A stretch of 64,000 nucleotides of DNA from Pseudomonadota bacterium. GTDB taxonomy: Bacteria > Desulfobacterota > Desulfovibrionia > Desulfovibrionales > Desulfomicrobiaceae. The position numbers were made by a program, and so were the translations under genes. Shown piece by piece: positions 44,376 to 53,336 of this stretch (position 1 is its first letter; every line of letters starts with the position of its first letter). Under the pieces are notes generated by a model. That model was given only the letters and a program-made list of their open reading frames with translations, made no database searches and was not told the origin of the DNA. The stretch covers positions 1 to 64,000 of the forward strand of contig JAHIQM010000018.1 in NCBI GenBank assembly GCA_018902545.1, in the 5' to 3' direction.

Positions 44376-46333
44376 AAGGAGAACATCGGATGCGGAAAAG
44401 TTCTGTGTGGTTTTTTTGCTTGGCAGTCATGAGCCTGGGACTGCTTGGCGTGTTGCCCGAGGCTTGGGCTGCTGGTGGTCTGCATCACGCCGCGGATGAA
44501 ATCGGCAAGCAGATGGGCGTGTTGTGGGTGGTGCCTTTTGCGGGCCTGCTTTTATCCATCGCCATTATGCCGCTCGCTATTCCCCACTTCTGGCATCACA
44601 ACTACGGCAAGGTCGCCGTTTTCTGGGCCGCGGCCTTCATCATCCCTTACGCCCTAGTGTACGGGTTCAGCCTGGCCCTCTACAATGTGCTGCACGTCCT
44701 GTTTCTGGAATACATCTCCTTTATCATCCTGCTCTTTTCTCTGTTCACCATCGCCGGCGGCGTGTGTCTGCGCGGCTCTCTGGTGGGCAAACCACAGGTC
44801 AATGTCGTCATCCTCCTCGTCGGCACATTGCTTGCGAGCTGGATGGGCACCACCGGTGCGGCCATGCTGCTCATCCGTCCGCTGATGCGCGCCATCTCGC
44901 ACCGCAAGTACAAGGTGCACACCATGGTCTTCTTTATCTTCCTGGTGGCCAATATCGGCGGCAGCCTCACGCCTCTGGGCGATCCGCCCCTGTTCCTGGG
45001 CTTCCTGAAGGGCGTGTCCTTCTTCTGGACCACGGTGCACATGTTTATGCCCTTCGCGGTGCTTTCCGCCATCCTGCTGGCCTTGTATTTTGCCATTGAT
45101 ACCTATCTGTTCAACAAGGAAGGTCGCCCCGAATCTCCCGACGCGGGTCAGGATGGCAAGCTGCGCCTGGAAGGTACCCCCAACCTGCTCCTGCTGGCCG
45201 GCGTGGTCGGCGGCGTGCTCATGAGCGGTATGTGGAAGCCCGGTGTTGAAATCACGATCTTCGAAGTTCACATCGAGTTGCAGAACATCGTTCGTGACGT
45301 GTTGCTGGTGGGCCTGGCTTTTGTCAGCCTGAAGATCACGGCCCCGGAAATCCGCCGCCGCAACGAGTTTGACTGGGAGCCCATCCGCGAGGTGGCCAAG
45401 CTCTTCTCGGGCATCTTCATATCCATGATTCCGGCTATCTCCATCCTGCGCGCCGGCACGGAGGGTGCGCTGAGCGGACTGATCTCCATGGTCAGGACGG
45501 CCGACGGGCTCGACAACCACACCATGTACTTTTGGCTGACTGGCACTCTGTCGGCGTTCCTGGACAACGCCCCGACCTATGTCGTGTTCTTCAACACGGC
45601 CGGCGGCGACGCCCAGCGTCTGATGACGGAGGTGGGTACCCTGCTGGCCATCTCGGCGGGTTCGGTCTTCTTCGGAGCCTGTACCTACATCGGCAACGCG
45701 CCCAACTTCATGGTCCGGTCCATCGCTGAAACGGGCGGCATCAAGATGCCCAGCTTCTTTGGCTACATGGCCTGGTCCGCAGGCATCCTGGTGCCGTGTT
45801 TCGTGCTCATGAACATTCTTTTCATCAACTAATCGACAACTTTGAGGCGGATCGACCCGCCGTGGAGATACGACTATGATCAAGGTTGAACGTGTACTCA
45901 TTCCGGTGGACGGATCGGATTCCTCCAGGAACGCGGCCAAGTACGGCGCGCACTTGGTCAATGCCAAGTACCCCAAGATATTCCTGCTCAACGTCTGGGA
46001 GCCCATCACCCTGACCATCGGCGGGGACAAGGCCGAGAAACTGCGCCAGAACGCCGAAGCCAAGTCCATGGTTTTGCTTGAGGAGCACAAGAAGCTGCTG
46101 GAGCCCTGCGGTTTGGACGTGGAGCTCATTACGCGCAGCGGCCGTCCGGACTACGCGATCCTGAACGTGCAGGACGAACTGGACTGCGACCTCATCGTCA
46201 TCGGTTCGCGCGGCCTGTCCGTGCTCGAGAACGTGATCATGGGCAGCGTGGTCACCCGCGTGCTCGAAGGGGCGACCTGCCCCGTGCTGGTCACGCGCAA
46301 CCTGCGCCTGAAGTACCTGCAGGACGCCTGCGG
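44376..46333 (+). repeat. Tandem duplication, unit 1 (antiporter + UspA)
   Basis: From the shared AAGGAGAACATCGG leader before the antiporter to the last codons of the stress protein, this 1958-bp unit recurs at 46827-48784 with equal length and the same internal spacing. The unit boundaries are where the two copies stop matching. The proteins are about 94% and 97% identical between copies (hand count). Confidence 0.92.
44390..45832 (+). CDS. NhaD/ArsB-superfamily sodium:proton antiporter, copy 1
   Basis: The 480-residue product starts at ATG 44390, with AAGGAG upstream. It has a cleavable-looking N-terminal segment (to about residue 27, LGVLPEAWAAGG) and about ten membrane helices. The motif GSLTPLGDPPLFLGFLKG and the SAFLDNAPTYVVFFN stretch are typical of the NhaD / citrate-transporter-like superfamily. 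It probably exports Na+ for H+, though anion transport is not excluded. A UspA-type gene follows by 43 bp, and the pair is duplicated downstream. Confidence 0.87.
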   Translation: MRKSSVWFFCLAVMSLGLLGVLPEAWAAGGLHHAADEIGKQMGVLWVVPFAGLLLSIAIMPLAIPHFWHHNYGKVAVFWAAAFIIPYALVYGFSLALYNVLHVLFLEYISFIILLFSLFTIAGGVCLRGSLVGKPQVNVVILLVGTLLASWMGTTGAAMLLIRPLMRAISHRKYKVHTMVFFIFLVANIGGSLTPLGDPPLFLGFLKGVSFFWTTVHMFMPFAVLSAILLALYFAIDTYLFNKEGRPESPDAGQDGKLRLEGTPNLLLLAGVVGGVLMSGMWKPGVEITIFEVHIELQNIVRDVLLVGLAFVSLKITAPEIRRRNEFDWEPIREVAKLFSGIFISMIPAISILRAGTEGALSGLISMVRTADGLDNHTMYFWLTGTLSAFLDNAPTYVVFFNTAGGDAQRLMTEVGTLLAISAGSVFFGACTYIGNAPNFMVRSIAETGGIKMPSFFGYMAWSAGILVPCFVLMNILFIN

Positions 46334-46340
46334 CTTGTAG
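45876..46340 (+). CDS. Universal stress protein, copy 1
   Basis: The 154-residue UspA-fold protein begins VERVLIPVDGSDSSRNAAKYG. The ATP-binding G-x2-G-x9-GS motif is complete (GSRGLSVLENVIMGS). It follows the antiporter copy 1 and may regulate it. The second copy at 48327 differs by about four residues. Confidence 0.92.
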   Translation: MIKVERVLIPVDGSDSSRNAAKYGAHLVNAKYPKIFLLNVWEPITLTIGGDKAEKLRQNAEAKSMVLLEEHKKLLEPCGLDVELITRSGRPDYAILNVQDELDCDLIVIGSRGLSVLENVIMGSVVTRVLEGATCPVLVTRNLRLKYLQDACGL

Positions 46341-46826: not shown

Positions 46827-48784
46827 AAGGAGAACATCGGATGCGGAAAAGTTCTGTATGGTTTTTTTGCCTGGCGGTCATGAGCCTGGGACTGCTTGGC
46901 ATGTTGCCCGAGGCCTGGGCCGCCGGCGGCTTGCATCACGCCGCCGATGAAATCGGCAAGCAGATGAGCGTGTTGTGGGTTGTGCCTTTTGCGGGCCTGC
47001 TTTTATCCATCGCCATCATGCCGCTGGCCATTCCCCACTTCTGGCATCACAACTACGGCAAGGTCGCCGCTTTCTGGGCCGCGGCCTTCATCGTTCCGTA
47101 CGCCCTAGTGTACGGTATCAGCCTGGCCGTCTACAATGTGCTGCACGTCCTGTTTCTGGAGTACATCTCTTTTATCATCCTGCTTTTTTCTCTTTTCACC
47201 ATCGCTGGCGGCGTGTGTCTGCGCGGCTCCCTGGTGGGCAAGCCGCAGGTCAATGTCGTCATCCTGCTGATCGGCACGCTGCTGGCGAGCTGGATGGGCA
47301 CCACCGGCGCGGCCATGTTGCTCATCCGCCCGCTGATGCGCGCCATTTCGCACCGCAAGTACAAGGTGCACACCATTGTCTTCTTCATCTTCCTGGTGGC
47401 CAACATCGGCGGCAGCCTTACGCCTTTGGGCGATCCGCCCCTGTTCCTTGGCTTCTTGAAGGGCGTGTCCTTCTTCTGGACCACGGTGCACATGTTCGTG
47501 CCCTTCGCGGTGCTCTCCGCCATCCTGCTGGCCCTGTATTTTGCCATCGATACCTATCTGTTCAACAAGGAAGGCCGGCCCGAGTCGCCTGACGCCGGTC
47601 TGGACGGCAAGCTGCGCCTGGAAGGCACCCCCAACCTGCTCCTGCTGGCAGGCGTAGTCGGCGGCGTGCTGATGAGCGGCATGTGGAAGCCTGGTGTTGA
47701 AATCACGGTTTTCGAAGTCCATATCGAATTGCAGAACATCATGCGCGACGTGTTGCTGCTTGGCCTAGCCTTTGTCAGTTTGAAGATCACGTCTACGGAA
47801 ATCCGCCGTCGCAACGAATTCGACTGGGAGCCCATCCGCGAGGTGGCCAAGCTCTTCTCGGGCATCTTCATCTCCATGATCCCGGCCATCTCCATCCTGC
47901 GTGCGGGCATGGACGGCGCCCTGAGCGGTCTGATCTCCATGGTCAGGACGCCCGAAGGCCTGGACAACCACACCATGTACTTTTGGCTGACCGGTTCTCT
48001 GTCCGCCTTCCTGGACAACGCCCCGACCTATGTCGTGTTTTTCAACACGGCCGGCGGCGACGCCCAGCGGCTGATGCAGGAAGTCGGCACCCTGCTGGCC
48101 ATCTCGGCGGGCGCGGTCTTCTTCGGGGCCTGCACGTACATCGGCAACGCGCCCAACTTCATGGTCCGGTCCATCGCTGAAACGGGCGGCATCAAGATGC
48201 CCAGCTTCTTTGGCTACATGGCCTGGTCGATAGGCATTCTGCTGCCCTGTTTCTTGCTCATGAACATTCTCTTCTTCCACTAATCAACAACTTTGAGGCG
48301 GCCCTGGCCGCCGAGGAGGGGCGACTATGATCAAGGTTGAACGTGTACTCATTCCGGTGGATGGATCGGATTCCTCCAGGAACGCGGCCAAGTACGGCGC
48401 GCATCTGGTCAATTCCAAGTACCCCAAGATTTTTCTGCTCAATGTCTGGGAGTCCATCACGCTGACCATCGGCGGGGACAAGGCCGAGAAACTGCGCCAG
48501 AACGCCGAGGCCAAGTCCATGGTTTTGCTTGAGGAACACAAGAAGCTGCTGGAGCCCTGCGGTATGGACGTAGAGCTCATTACGCGCAGCGGGCGTCCGG
48601 ACTACGCGATCCTGAACGTGCAGGACGAACTGGACTGCGACCTCATCGTCATCGGTTCGCGCGGCTTGTCTGTGCTTGAGAACGTGATCATGGGCAGCGT
48701 GGTCACCCGCGTGCTCGAAGGGGCGACCTGCCCCGTGCTGGTAACGCGCAATCTGCGCCTGAAGTATCTGAAGGACGCCTGCGG
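46827..48784 (+). repeat. Tandem duplication, unit 2 (antiporter + UspA)
   Basis: Second copy of the 1958-bp unit, offset by exactly 2451 bp from the first. It retains the leader AAGGAGAACATCGG and the same 43-bp antiporter-UspA spacer length. Differences are mostly synonymous or conservative, so both copies are likely functional. Confidence 0.92.
46841..48283 (+). CDS. NhaD/ArsB-superfamily sodium:proton antiporter, copy 2
   Basis: The 480-residue paralogue of copy 1, differing at about 27 positions. The changes are mostly in the N-terminal signal-like segment, the cytosolic region near residues 270-370 and the last 20 residues. The conserved GSLTPLGDPPLFLGFLKG and SAFLDNAPTYVVFFN are unchanged. 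Its ATG is preceded by AAGGAG exactly as in copy 1, and it is followed by UspA copy 2. Confidence 0.87.
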   Translation: MRKSSVWFFCLAVMSLGLLGMLPEAWAAGGLHHAADEIGKQMSVLWVVPFAGLLLSIAIMPLAIPHFWHHNYGKVAAFWAAAFIVPYALVYGISLAVYNVLHVLFLEYISFIILLFSLFTIAGGVCLRGSLVGKPQVNVVILLIGTLLASWMGTTGAAMLLIRPLMRAISHRKYKVHTIVFFIFLVANIGGSLTPLGDPPLFLGFLKGVSFFWTTVHMFVPFAVLSAILLALYFAIDTYLFNKEGRPESPDAGLDGKLRLEGTPNLLLLAGVVGGVLMSGMWKPGVEITVFEVHIELQNIMRDVLLLGLAFVSLKITSTEIRRRNEFDWEPIREVAKLFSGIFISMIPAISILRAGMDGALSGLISMVRTPEGLDNHTMYFWLTGSLSAFLDNAPTYVVFFNTAGGDAQRLMQEVGTLLAISAGAVFFGACTYIGNAPNFMVRSIAETGGIKMPSFFGYMAWSIGILLPCFLLMNILFFH

Positions 48785-48791
48785 TCTCTAA
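48327..48791 (+). CDS. Universal stress protein, copy 2
   Basis: The 154-residue UspA paralogue, about 97% identical to copy 1 by hand count. Differences include A/S and P/S near residues 28-41, L/M near residue 75 and Q/K near the C-terminus. The ATP motif GSRGLSVLENVIMGS is intact. It is followed by a bidirectional terminator. Confidence 0.92.
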   Translation: MIKVERVLIPVDGSDSSRNAAKYGAHLVNSKYPKIFLLNVWESITLTIGGDKAEKLRQNAEAKSMVLLEEHKKLLEPCGMDVELITRSGRPDYAILNVQDELDCDLIVIGSRGLSVLENVIMGSVVTRVLEGATCPVLVTRNLRLKYLKDACGL

Positions 48792-48848: not shown

Positions 48849-50213
48849 CTATCTGGTGGTCAGTCCGTATTTTTTGAGGCGGTATTGCAGGGTGCGGCGG
48901 CTGATGCCCAGGGCCTGAGCCGTGCGTTCGCGGTGTCCGGCGTATTTGCGCAGGGTTTCTTCGAGGGCCTGCCGCTCTGCCGTCTCCAAGGGGCTTTCCC
49001 CGGGCTGGGCAATATGCCGAGGTAAAAGAGCCGTGCCCTGCGTCGCCAAATGTTCGGGAAGGTCCCGCAGGTCCAGGGTGTCGGCGCGGCAAAGGATGAG
49101 GGCGCGCTCCAGGACATTTTCAAGTTCGCGCACATTGCCCCGCCATTCGTGGCGGTTGAGCGCGTCCAGGAATTCGCGGCTGACAGTGCGCACGGGGCGG
49201 CTGTTCTTGCGGCCGAGCTTGTCAAGCAGGTAGTCCACGAGCAGGGGGATATCCTCGATGCGCTCGCGCAAGGGGGGGATGCGGATTTCAAGGACATTTA
49301 AGCGGTAGTAAAGGTCTTCGCGGAATTTGCCCTCGGCGATCATGGTCGGCAGGTCGCGGTTGGTGGCCGCAATGAAGCGTACGTCGATGCTGACCGGCGT
49401 CACTCCGCCCAGGGGTTCGACGATGCGTTCCTGCAGGGCGCGCAGGATCTTGGCCTGCAGTGTCAGCGGCAGTTCGCCGATTTCATCCAGAAAGAGGGTG
49501 CCGCCACCGGCCAGCTGGAATCGGCCGGGCTTGTCCTGGGCCGCGCCGGTGAAGGCACCGCGCACATAGCCGAAGAGTTCGCTTTCGAGCAGGTTTTCGG
49601 GCAGGGCCGCGCAGTTGACCTTGACCAGGGGGCCACCGGAGCGCGCGCTTTTCTCGTGCAGTTGCTGGGCCACAAGCTCCTTGCCCGTGCCCGATTCGCC
49701 AAGGATGAGCACGTTGGCCTCGCTGGGGCCCACCTGTTCGATGAGTTCGACGACCCTGCGGATTTCTCCGCTGCTGCCGATGATGCGTGTCTCGCGCAGC
49801 TGGCCGATCTGCTTCTTGAGATCGCGGTTCTCGCGGGTCAGACGCACATGCTCCGCAGCCTTTTGCACCACGGCCAGCAATTCGTCGTTGTCCGTGGGCT
49901 TGGTGAGATAGTCCCAGGCACCGATTTTCATGGCCTCCACGGCGCTGCCCACGTTGCCGAACGCGGTCAGCATGATCACGGGCGTCGTCATGGCCTCCTC
50001 GTGCATCTTCTGCAAAACGTCGAGGCCGCTCATACCCGGCATGCGCATGTCCAGCAGGACGACGTCCACGGGCTTGGAGCGCAGGGTGACCAGTCCGGAC
50101 GAACCGTTGTCCGCCTCAAGTACCCTGAAGCCGGCGTCGCCAAGGACGACACGGACCATGAGCCGGTGTGCCGGTTCGTCGTCGATGACCAGTACTGTGG
50201 GCTGTTGGGTCAT
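48849..50213 (-). CDS. zraR: Sigma-54-dependent response regulator (ZraR/NtrC family)
   Basis: The 454-residue protein has a receiver domain (about 1-120; VLVIDDEPAHRLM, phospho-Asp in LLDMRMPGMSG). The AAA+ domain (about 140-370) has GESGTGKELVAQQLHE, the sigma-54-contact loop VRGAFTGAAQ and LFLDEIGELPL. A C-terminal Fis-type helix-turn-helix follows (RERTAQALGISRRTLQYRLKKYG). It overlaps the kinase gene by 4 bp. The zra name rests on the adjacent ZraP-like gene; substrate metal is not known. Confidence 0.88.
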   Translation of the reverse strand: MTQQPTVLVIDDEPAHRLMVRVVLGDAGFRVLEADNGSSGLVTLRSKPVDVVLLDMRMPGMSGLDVLQKMHEEAMTTPVIMLTAFGNVGSAVEAMKIGAWDYLTKPTDNDELLAVVQKAAEHVRLTRENRDLKKQIGQLRETRIIGSSGEIRRVVELIEQVGPSEANVLILGESGTGKELVAQQLHEKSARSGGPLVKVNCAALPENLLESELFGYVRGAFTGAAQDKPGRFQLAGGGTLFLDEIGELPLTLQAKILRALQERIVEPLGGVTPVSIDVRFIAATNRDLPTMIAEGKFREDLYYRLNVLEIRIPPLRERIEDIPLLVDYLLDKLGRKNSRPVRTVSREFLDALNRHEWRGNVRELENVLERALILCRADTLDLRDLPEHLATQGTALLPRHIAQPGESPLETAERQALEETLRKYAGHRERTAQALGISRRTLQYRLKKYGLTTR

Positions 50214-51904
50214 GTAATGCTCTCGGTATGGTTTGCGGGAAAGAAAAGGGAAACGACCGTGCCGGTGGGCTCCGTCGTCTCGATCTCGATGTTGCCGCCG
50301 TGTTCCTGCATGATGGTGTGAACGATGGCCAGACCAAGGCCTGTGCCCTTGTCCCGGGTGGTGAAAAAGGGTTCGAGCGCGTGCTCGAGTTCTTCCGGAG
50401 TCATGCCCCGCCCGTTGTCTCGGACGCGCACCCAGGTCCCCTTGTCGTGGGACTCGGCGCGTAGCTCGATCAGACCGCCACTTTCCGGCAGGGCCTCGAC
50501 GCTGTTCATGAGCAGATTGATGACGGCCTGCTTCAGGGCGTCCCGGTCGGCCAGAACGGTCGCTACTTCGGCTTTAAATTCCAGGCGCCCGTTTTTGGTC
50601 TCCACATCCATTGACAGAAGAGTATGCACTTCCTGGAAAATCTCTGCAAGGGGCACCTGGACGAAGTCCAGCTGGCGGGGCCGGGCCAGGAAGAGCAGGT
50701 CGGTGATGACCCGGTTCAGGCGGTCAGCTTCCTGGACCATGGTCCGCGCGTACAATTCTTCGGGGTCGCGCCCGGCCAGCTTCTTGGCGAAAAATTGGGC
50801 GAAGCCGCGCAGGGCCGAGAGCGGGTTGCGGATCTCGTGGGCCACTCCGGCGGCCATGCGGCCGATGGCCGCCAGCTTCTCGTTGCGGTGCAGCTCACGC
50901 TCGAGCCCGGCCAGTTCCGTACGGTCGCGAACCAGCACCAGGCTTTGCTCCGATCCATCTTTCAAAGGGAGCTGCAGAATTTCCAGATGCCGATCGCAGG
51001 TTTTGAGGGTCGTCCATTCCTGCCCCGGCTGTTTTCCTGTGCTCAGGCCAAGGGTGGAGAAGAGGTTCGACAGTGGCTGGCCGATAAGCGTCTGCCCCCC
51101 CATGAGGCTTGTGGCCGCCGGGTTGGCGGCCACGACCGTGCCGTCGGCGGAGAGGGTCAGCAGGCCGTCGGGCATGTTGTCCAGCAGGCGGGCATTGAAG
51201 GATTCCAGACGTTGCAGCCTTTTTCCCTGTTCGTTGCGCTGCAGAAAGCCCAGCAGCAGGACCCAGAACACGATCGTGACGGCGAGAATGTAGCCGGTCT
51301 GCAGGATGGCCGTACGCTTGTATTTTCCGAAGGCGGCCAGGTGCTGGGTCATGTCCACACCGATGATCAGTAGCGGGGGCTGCTTGTCCGGCGGGCACTG
51401 GCCGTCGGGGCACCCGACATCTGTAGTAAGGTGCGAGATCCGGCCCAGAACCATGATGGGCTGGCCTTCAAAATTCATCTGTCCGCTCCATTCGCCTTCA
51501 TTACCCATGCTTGCCCAGGCGATGGTCGGCAACTGGTTCTGAATGGCCCTGGGATCATCATGGGAGGAGAGCAGAATGTGTCCCAGCGGGTTGTAGAGGC
51601 CGATGAAACGAGCGTCGGTGCGCTTGATATAATCCAGCAGCAGTTCCCGGGCCAGGGCGCGGTGGAGGTGCAGGAGCGTGTTGGCGTGTTCGGGGGTCGT
51701 CGGCAGGCGCAGTTCCCGGCGCAGGTTGATTTCGATGCCGGCGGCGATGGACCTGGCCGTGACCAGGGCGTGCTCGTGAAAGGAGTCCTGCTGCTGCCGC
51801 AGGTTGCGCCAGGTGGAAAAGCTCAGCGCCAGACCGAGCATGAAGACGGCCATGGTGGTGATCATGATGGTGCGGTTGCGGCGTGATGGCAGGGCTAGTT
51901 CCAT
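50210..51904 (-). CDS. zraS: Membrane sensor histidine kinase (ZraS-like)
   Basis: The 564-residue protein has membrane segments near residues 13-30 and 200-220, enclosing a periplasmic sensor domain of about 170 residues. A short CPDGQC motif in that domain could bind metal. A PAS domain (about 235-330), the H-box GVAHEIRNPLSALRGFAQ and the ATPase motifs (AVINLLMNSVEALPES, GTGLGLAIVHTIM) complete it. AAGGAAGG lies just before the ATG. It is downstream of the ZraP-like gene and coupled to the regulator. Confidence 0.87.
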   Translation of the reverse strand: MELALPSRRNRTIMITTMAVFMLGLALSFSTWRNLRQQQDSFHEHALVTARSIAAGIEINLRRELRLPTTPEHANTLLHLHRALARELLLDYIKRTDARFIGLYNPLGHILLSSHDDPRAIQNQLPTIAWASMGNEGEWSGQMNFEGQPIMVLGRISHLTTDVGCPDGQCPPDKQPPLLIIGVDMTQHLAAFGKYKRTAILQTGYILAVTIVFWVLLLGFLQRNEQGKRLQRLESFNARLLDNMPDGLLTLSADGTVVAANPAATSLMGGQTLIGQPLSNLFSTLGLSTGKQPGQEWTTLKTCDRHLEILQLPLKDGSEQSLVLVRDRTELAGLERELHRNEKLAAIGRMAAGVAHEIRNPLSALRGFAQFFAKKLAGRDPEELYARTMVQEADRLNRVITDLLFLARPRQLDFVQVPLAEIFQEVHTLLSMDVETKNGRLEFKAEVATVLADRDALKQAVINLLMNSVEALPESGGLIELRAESHDKGTWVRVRDNGRGMTPEELEHALEPFFTTRDKGTGLGLAIVHTIMQEHGGNIEIETTEPTGTVVSLFFPANHTESIT

Positions 51905-51983: not shown

Positions 51984-52457
51984 TTACATGGTTTGTACGG
52001 GAGGACAGCACGGGGAGGAGCCGGCGCATGGGGTTGCGCCGCTGGAGTATGCTCCGCACCCGCCCTTGCGCCCGCAGCCTCTGCCGGATTCGAAGGGTAC
52101 GGGTTTGCCTGCGATTTCAGCCAGTTCGACGCGGTAGTCCGCGTTGAGCTGGGCTTTTTTCGCCTGCAGCCCGCTTACCTCGGACACGGCGTTGTCAATG
52201 GCGGCCTTGTCGGCAGGGGATGCCGCAAACAGGTTTTCCATGGCTTCGTGCTTGGTCACAAGCTCTTTTTGGAGGGCAAAGAGTTCCTTGTGGTGCTCGT
52301 CAGTCAGCGCCTGGACTTTCTGCTGCTGTTCGGGCGTCAGGCCGGACATGAAGTCCTGGTAGTGTCCCTGTCCCGGACAGCCGCCCCTGTAGGCCTGGGC
52401 CCCGGCTGCGAGGGCCAGGACCAGCGTGAGGAGGAGGATGATGTGCTTGAGGTACAT
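51984..52457 (-). CDS. zraP: ZraP/CpxP-like periplasmic metal-sensing chaperone with Cys-rich tail
   Basis: The 157-residue product starts at ATG 52457, with GGAAG upstream, and has a signal peptide (LLLTLVLALAAGAQA). The helical ZraP-like core has SGLTPEQQQKVQALTDEHH and AIDNAVSEVSGLQAKKAQL. The tail, from about residue 122, is unusually Cys/Gly-rich (GRGCGRKGGCGAYSSG, then CAGSSPCCPP), and an N-terminal GGCPGQGH may add ligands. In enterobacteria ZraP binds zinc and represses ZraSR. A sigma-54 promoter lies upstream. Confidence 0.85.
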   Translation of the reverse strand: MYLKHIILLLTLVLALAAGAQAYRGGCPGQGHYQDFMSGLTPEQQQKVQALTDEHHKELFALQKELVTKHEAMENLFAASPADKAAIDNAVSEVSGLQAKKAQLNADYRVELAEIAGKPVPFESGRGCGRKGGCGAYSSGATPCAGSSPCCPPVQTM

Positions 52458-52511
52458 TGAAGGCTTCCTTACATTCTGGAGGTAGTGGAATGTCTTTGGT
52501 TGATTCAGCTT

Positions 52512-52528
52512 TAGCAGGGGCTGTGCCA
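52512..52528 (-). promoter_or_regulatory. Sigma-54 promoter of the zraP-zraS-zraR operon
   Basis: Reading on the minus strand the sequence TGGCACAGCCCCTGCTA has the GG-N10-GC spacing of -24/-12 promoters and an exact TGGCAC -24 box. It lies about 55 bp upstream of the zraP ATG. The NtrC-type regulator in the same operon is the natural activator. Confidence 0.85.
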
Positions 52529-52605
52529 AAAAACGAGCTCCTTATATTTCGGGACATTGGCTTTTATGTGTGCCCCACGGCCGGACTCTTTTCGTGCGGA
52601 TGTTT

Positions 52606-52637
52606 GCACAAGACGTGCTTATGTGCAATATCTTGCA
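52606..52637. promoter_or_regulatory. Candidate regulator-binding dyads upstream of the sigma-54 promoter
   Basis: Two short inverted repeats: GCAC-N5-GTGC at 52606-52618 and TGCAATATCTTGCA at 52624-52637. They lie about 80-125 bp upstream of the -24/-12 element, the usual distance for an enhancer-binding protein. They also lie 94-125 bp upstream of the His-rich gene on the other strand, so they may serve both. The call is inference. Confidence 0.5.
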
Positions 52638-52730
52638 TTTTGAGTGGTATTGCCATTGACGGTGAAAGGATTACCATAGCAGGCATATTCAACGTCAAAC
52701 GCCTGTTCTCAAGGGCTCCGGGAGGTTCAT

Positions 52731-52898
52731 ATGTGCAAGGGTTGCGGATGTTTGCGGGGCAAGACCACGACAACTGTGGTCAATCATGATCACGAGCACA
52801 GCCATGGGGATCTGACTCACAGTCACCCCCATGACCATGATCATGACCATACCCACGACGAGAAGGGTGCTGTGGTCCACGAGGATCACAAGCATTAG
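52731..52898 (+). CDS. Small Cys/His-rich putative metal-binding protein
   Basis: A 55-residue ORF too short for many gene callers. ATG 52731 has GGAGG 5 bp upstream. The N-terminus is MCKGCGC; the middle and C-terminus hold 14 histidines, mostly in H-x-H or D-H patterns (HDHEHSHGD, HSHPHDHDHDHTHD). Such composition is typical of Zn/Ni/Co storage or chaperone proteins. It is divergent from the ZraPSR-like operon and 63 bp upstream of a small CbiX gene. I know no named family for it. Confidence 0.82.
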   Translation: MCKGCGCLRGKTTTTVVNHDHEHSHGDLTHSHPHDHDHDHTHDEKGAVVHEDHKH

Positions 52899-52961
52899 GC
52901 CTGCATGTCGTGAAGGGCGCCTGAGTTGAGCGGGGGCCCTTTTTTCATTTCAGGAGGATGT

Positions 52962-53336
52962 GTGAAGAAAACGGGAATGATTGTCCTTGGACACGGCAGC
53001 AGACGCCCTGAGGTTGCCCTGCAGTTCACGGCCATGGTCGGGCGTGTCGCGGACCGGGTCCGGGATGCGGTGGTTCTGCCTGCCTTTTTTTCGCTCGGGG
53101 AGCCTACCCTGGCCGACCAGGTCCGCTTGCTTGCCGCAGATGGCTGCCAGCGTATCGTGGTTATGCAGTATTTTCTCTACAACGGGGTGCACATCGAACA
53201 CGACATCCCCGAAATGATCGCCGAATTGCGGGGGGAGTTTGTGGATGTCGAGTTCGTGCTCCAGTCCACCCTGCAGGACGACCCCGCGCTGGAGCGGCTC
53301 ATTGTCGACCGCCTGTTGGCCGATGGCGGGGTGTAA
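52962..53336 (+). CDS. cbiX: Small CbiX-family sirohydrochlorin chelatase (GTG start)
   Basis: The 124-residue product has the single-domain chelatase fold: IVLGHGSRRPEVALQF, VLPAFFSLGEPTLADQV and FLYNGVHIEHDIPEMI. The metal-binding histidines are in LGHGS and HIEHD. It would insert cobalt, iron or nickel into a sirohydrochlorin-type ring. AGGAGG lies 4 bp before the GTG start. It lacks the His-rich tail found in some larger CbiX proteins; the upstream small His-rich protein may replace it. Confidence 0.87.
   Translation: MKKTGMIVLGHGSRRPEVALQFTAMVGRVADRVRDAVVLPAFFSLGEPTLADQVRLLAADGCQRIVVMQYFLYNGVHIEHDIPEMIAELRGEFVDVEFVLQSTLQDDPALERLIVDRLLADGGV

Follow-up and report, generated by a model that had tools for sequence, protein, structure and literature searches.

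A small gene in the window (the whole stretch of 64,000 nucleotides that was analysed) encodes a 55-residue protein that joins the Cys motif of the HypB prefix to a His-rich tail; it lies directly 5' of a short cbiX. The gene is genuine and, in Desulfomicrobium-like sulfate reducers, under strong conservation. The best reading, to which we give a probability of about one half, is that its product is cytosolic, disordered and able to bind Ni or Co, and acts as a metal buffer or carrier in the vicinity of CbiX, with both metal binding and delivery being what we infer. How class II chelatases obtain cobalt, and not nickel, iron or zinc, in cells is an active question. The known cobalt supplier CobW, for which metal supply to a B12 chelatase has likewise been proposed, is a GTPase that serves CobNST in the aerobic pathway (PMC7689651), whereas the small protein has 55 residues, is encoded beside CbiX and is a simple candidate for such a role. 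The features of the locus are as follows:

48849..50213, minus strand: ZraR/AtoC-type sigma54 response regulator (Pfam/NCBIfam)
50210..51904, minus strand: ZraS-like sensor histidine kinase (Pfam/NCBIfam, HisKA kinase)
51984..52457, minus strand: zraP-like periplasmic metal-resistance protein with a Cys-rich tail (PF13801, Metal_resist, E=7.2e-25)
52511..52528, minus strand: sigma54-type promoter TGGCACAGCCCCTGCTAA, reading towards zraP
52604..52628, no strand assigned: conserved inverted repeat TTGCACA-N11-TGTGCAA, a candidate ZraR enhancer site
52650..52677, plus strand: possible ordinary promoter, TTGCCA - 16 nt - TACCAT, a conserved block in same-genus genomes with a weak consensus match
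52701..52716, plus strand: small hairpin GCCTGTTCTCAAGGGC, just 5' of the Shine-Dalgarno sequence
52720..52725, plus strand: Shine-Dalgarno sequence GGGAGG of the small gene, 5 nt 5' of the ATG and aligned in orthologues
52731..52898, plus strand: small gene, 55 aa, with a HypB-type MCxxCGC N-terminus and a His-rich tail; orthologues under strong coding constraint
52913..52945, plus strand: terminator-like hairpin and T run in the small gene-cbiX spacer
52962..53336, plus strand: short cbiX, class II sirohydrochlorin chelatase, 124 aa (PF01903, E=1.9e-21; His11 and His77 conserved)

The translation of positions 52731-52898 (plus strand), MCKGCGCLRGKTTTTVVNHDHEHSHGDLTHSHPHDHDHDHTHDEKGAVVHEDHKH, starts with MCKGCGC, has Cys at residues 2, 5 and 7 and contains 14 His among its 55 residues; these features and the ribosome-binding site had been pointed out in the initial annotation and were all confirmed. 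Its remark that common gene callers would miss so short a gene is open to doubt, as 168 nt exceeds the usual length limit of such programs. A search at the protein level through 150 related genomes identified one strong orthologue in each of the 15 other genomes of the same genus (62-93% identity) and further orthologues in other genera of the family (f1) and in a second family (f2), and the named records matching them were Desulfomicrobium, Desulfomicrobiaceae and Desulfonauticus MAGs. The coding constraint on which the initial annotation depended was evident: among 11 ungapped orthologues, 43 of the 55 third codon positions varied compared with 11 first and 11 second positions (that is, third positions were approximately four times more variable), and pairwise dN/dS was 0.02-0.22. 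The ORF is short and of low complexity, as a chance or antisense reading frame with no product might be, but the codon-position pattern and dN/dS rule out such a frame and the conserved start, Shine-Dalgarno sequence and terminator are also contrary to it, which leaves this explanation with a negligible probability. A DNA pattern for the MC..C.C start had exactly one match per f1 genome and none in the reversed control. Across 19 aligned sequences, M1, C2, C5, C7, H19, H21, H23, H25, G26, the HSHPH block (30-34), H36, H40, H53 and H55 were invariant, the three Cys and HSHPH thus being unchanged over two families, and Gly6 of MCxxCGC differed in one member. Structure prediction from the single sequence gave no fold (mean pLDDT 61.9, pTM 0.21).

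The downstream neighbour has the properties of CbiX-S, with a single CbiX domain in a protein of approximately 120 aa, a PF01903 match over 105 positions and two catalytic His, and the ZraPSR-like operon divergent from the small gene was also recognized by Pfam/NCBIfam models, so both neighbours named in the initial annotation were correct. A search for the small gene next to cbiX, which had been suggested there, showed that cbiX lies directly 3' of it in all 16 same-genus genomes (window included) and that zraPSR is divergent from it in 15 of the 16; it should be noted that these cases are not independent events, since the f1 genomes are related and the gene pairs come partly from draft genomes. 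The remaining genome (G004) keeps the small gene-cbiX pair with no ZraPSR nearby. Thus, the steady partner of the small gene is CbiX and not Zra, because the pair holds throughout the genus even where ZraPSR is not nearby. Other neighbouring genes, dksA and phoH, were absent from the vicinity in several same-genus genomes. A stable hairpin was present in the small gene-cbiX intergenic region of all 16 genomes, nearly always with a T run.

On the basis of these observations, the small protein would reside in the cytosol, have little structure and bind Ni(II) or Co(II). The N-terminal Met-Cys-x-x-Cys-Gly-Cys would correspond to the tight nickel site of the HypB prefix, here on a separate protein, and the His-rich tail would provide several weaker metal sites, a combination that would suit a buffer or carrier. 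The metal binding indicated in the initial annotation fits the composition of the protein, and the binding itself is predicted from sequence. CbiX, by comparison a cytosolic class II chelatase, would load sirohydrochlorin with a metal, cobalt for vitamin B12 being the most likely one. Adjacency to an enzyme of this kind makes the small protein a candidate for supplying the metal or guarding its insertion: it may offer Co(II), or it may withhold Ni(II), a metal that enzymes of class II are able to insert as well. Indeed, the class II enzymes CfbA and SirB can work with Ni as well as Co (PMC11301274). The terminator between the two genes may allow the binding protein to be made in excess over CbiX. 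The only CbiK of the window genome has a signal-peptide-like start and, for this reason, CbiX appears to be the only cytosolic class II chelatase of the CbiX and CbiK families found there; the genome also encodes CbiC and CbiM. A more specific proposal, that the small protein is a dedicated metallochaperone or metal guard of the anaerobic (early-insertion) vitamin B12 pathway, in which a free HypB-type site would pass Co(II) on to CbiX or shield CbiX from Ni(II), is in our view unlikely. Salmonella CbiK is thought to take Co(II) unaided from a buffered pool (PMC7689651). That cobalt is the metal of CbiX is suggested by cbiX-cbiC fusions beside cbiA in f2, and the window CbiX could serve siroheme (iron) instead.

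A link between sirohydrochlorin chelatases and metal stores is supported by another family of the same order (f4), in which CbiK carries fused His/Cys-rich extensions. In the six f4 genomes that were read, 13-21 His occurred in the 70 residues before the CbiK domain, and 22 were found in the second CbiK of genome G001 (loci L149 and L154-L158 in f4 and L166 in G001; some of these proteins are also His-rich at the C-terminus). Like the small protein, these extensions contain many His and are tied to a sirohydrochlorin chelatase, but they are fused to the enzyme and do not have an MCxxCGC start. Free-standing small His-rich proteins of presumed metal storage are represented by the nickel proteins Hpn and Hpn-like of Helicobacter (PMC4671568); no CbiX link is known for the Helicobacter proteins, in contrast with the small protein.

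The closest likeness of the N-terminus is to HypB. All 19 aligned members matched the NCBIfam HypB prefix model NF053667 below its cut-off (best E 1.6e-4), and the window protein scored 19.7 bits, not reaching the curated cut-off of 30. As in that prefix, Met-Cys-x-x-Cys-Gly-Cys stands at residue 1 and is followed by a His-rich stretch, and in an alphaproteobacterial HypB (Natronohydrobacter MAG) MCTVCGC is followed by a 16-mer, HDHEHSHGDLTHSHPH, identical to that of the small protein. The CXXCGC site of Escherichia coli HypB binds Ni with a subpicomolar Kd (PMC7055735). On the other hand, the small protein has no G3E GTPase domain and is a separate ORF with its own stop codon and terminator, HypB is encoded elsewhere, and the small gene adjoins cbiX and not hyp genes. 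Similar HEHxHRHGDxxHxH segments were found at the end of NikO/CbiO-type ABC ATPases and inside a loop of a transporter resembling RcnA, these families being assigned by inspecting the sequences. The likeness to the HypB prefix, in a sequence that is short and of biased composition, may reflect either homology or convergence. The small protein indicates that predicted metal sites of HypB type do occur as free proteins.

The main rival reading is therefore a nickel role with HypB, in which the small protein would act in trans as the missing nickel prefix of HypB, as a carrier or reservoir for [NiFe]-hydrogenase maturation, and its adjacency to cbiX would be incidental. Besides the spacing of MCxxCGC and the His block, this is favored by the long proteins starting with MCKxCGC in the same phylum outside the order, which were HypB, and by the HypB of the window genome and 30 others of the order, which start without the prefix. 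However, HypB is prefix-less in genomes with and without the small protein, by which a recent split from HypB within the order is likewise left unsupported; moreover, the small gene never adjoined hyp genes in the genomes studied, and its pairing with cbiX is constant within the genus. We consider this reading rather unlikely, despite some support from the more distant relatives described below.

Outside the genus, the contexts of the small gene were more varied. In two other f1 genera (G016 and G017), cbiX was located approximately 1.7-2 kb away with one gene between, and in G017 a CbiC-like part, read by eye, follows CbiX in frame. In genus g4 the small gene does not adjoin cbiX; in one of its genomes (G020), cobD/cbiB was approximately 3.5 kb away. 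In f2 (G027, G031 and G043), the small gene was near a periplasmic binding protein resembling BtuF/FepB; in G027 this Peripla_BP_2 protein is accompanied by a FecCD permease, cbiA and a cbiX-cbiC fusion, the permease and cbiA-cbiXC lying within approximately 8 kb. A urease link in G043 was considered and dropped: its ureG-like (PF02492) and ureF-like genes are found from approximately 2.3 kb past the small gene onwards, in a stretch that is possibly foreign or misassembled because G+C climbs from approximately 0.37 to 0.5 on this MAG contig. Convincing CbiX matches (E<1e-12) were restricted to f1 and f2 among 61 genomes, and several f2 genomes had CbiX and no small protein. A nucleotide pattern search brought in genome G019 and, in seven genomes of a further family, f5, relatives with long tails (98-136 aa). 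In view of these relatives, an apparently clean phylogenetic match of CbiX with the small protein across f1 and f2 was downgraded; common descent may account for the two being present together in those families. The f5 proteins (loci L206 and L208-L213 in G099, G085, G093, G118, G131, G105 and G077) are free-standing, start with MCKxCGC and have very long His-rich tails. They adjoin genes other than cbiX, and no strong CbiX match was found in the sampled f5 members; CbiX is therefore not a universal partner. Three of them adjoin an Opp/Nik-family ABC importer whose NikA scores are far under the cut-off, and this context, like the missing CbiX neighbour, would agree with the nickel role with HypB. 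Thus, the CbiX link is strong within the genus itself, is suggestive in f2 and the remainder of f1, and is absent from f5. A search for plasmid-borne relatives gave no match, which a low-complexity filter may have affected.

Another explanation is that the small protein scavenges zinc or other metals in excess in the manner of a metallothionein, under ZraSR control together with ZraP. The divergent zraPSR in nearly every same-genus genome is consistent with this, as is the conserved inverted repeat between the genes, whose TTGCAC...TGTGCAA was kept in nearly all of 16 aligned upstream regions. However, the only clear sigma54 promoter in the spacer is directed to zraP, G004 retains the small gene and cbiX without ZraPSR, and other genera carry the gene away from Zra. 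In addition, metallothioneins are not known to have the Cys pattern of the small protein. Such a scavenger appears quite improbable, and of the metal-stress system described in the initial annotation the adjoining Zra genes stand, on one side only and with a link to the small gene that is positional only. The ZraP-like protein scored 49 bits against the ZraP model (cut-off 200) and ends in a Cys/Gly-rich tail, GRGCGRKGGCGAYSSGATPCAGSSPCCPPVQTM (window 51984-52070, minus strand). A regulator of the orthologous type, DVU3381 of D. vulgaris, controls its own operon, DVU3382-DVU3381, as well as DVU3384 (PMC4641369).

The initial annotation had also viewed the small protein as the metal store of a chelatase that had been split, that is, as the His-rich, Cys-bearing tail of a large CbiX (CbiX-L) turned into its own gene. 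The adjoining short CbiX would agree with this, and the C-terminal extension of the class II cobaltochelatase CbiX-L (Bacillus megaterium) is likewise His-rich, has been proposed to act in metal storage and delivery, and is dispensable for catalysis in vitro (PMC7689651). However, CbiX-L has MXCXXC with a 4Fe-4S centre, whereas the small protein has MCXXCXC at residue 1, and it is separated from cbiX as its own ORF with a terminator-like hairpin; no fused CbiX with the small-protein sequence was found. Its nearest outside sequences are HypB prefixes, sharing MCxxCGC, and the His segments of the NikO/CbiO- and RcnA-like proteins, and the f5 relatives belong to a family without a strong CbiX match among its sampled members. 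Descent from a CbiX tail is thus very doubtful, and the link between a chelatase and a metal store is retained from that proposal through the CbiK extensions of f4.

The hairpin before the Shine-Dalgarno sequence was retained in the 9 same-genus leaders that were aligned, where some of the changes are paired, and translation control by it is possible. No Rfam element reached the gathering score in the window, in which no riboswitch was found, and an Rfam search of 12 related loci gave tRNAs and one ureB sRNA match only.

Several minor observations were made. Two nearly identical universal stress protein genes (45876-46340 and 48327-48791) flank a CitMHS_2 transporter gene in the window, an arrangement also present in relatives. 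In G064, the gene immediately 5' of the small gene (L054:4552-5919) encodes a fusion of a cation efflux transporter with a dinitrogenase iron-molybdenum cofactor domain. Finally, a micro-ORF of 10-11 codons, MCKTCGCGGKK or MCKTCGCGKK, was observed in 7 of 24 genomes, representing four genera (family f33 genomes G368, G408, G528, G246, G323, G427 and G536; loci L217-L221 and L229-L235). It is preceded by a Shine-Dalgarno-like sequence and followed by a terminator-like hairpin, its base changes are all synonymous except for one Gly codon that is present or absent, and its stop codon varies; it could be a HypB-type metal-binding micropeptide.
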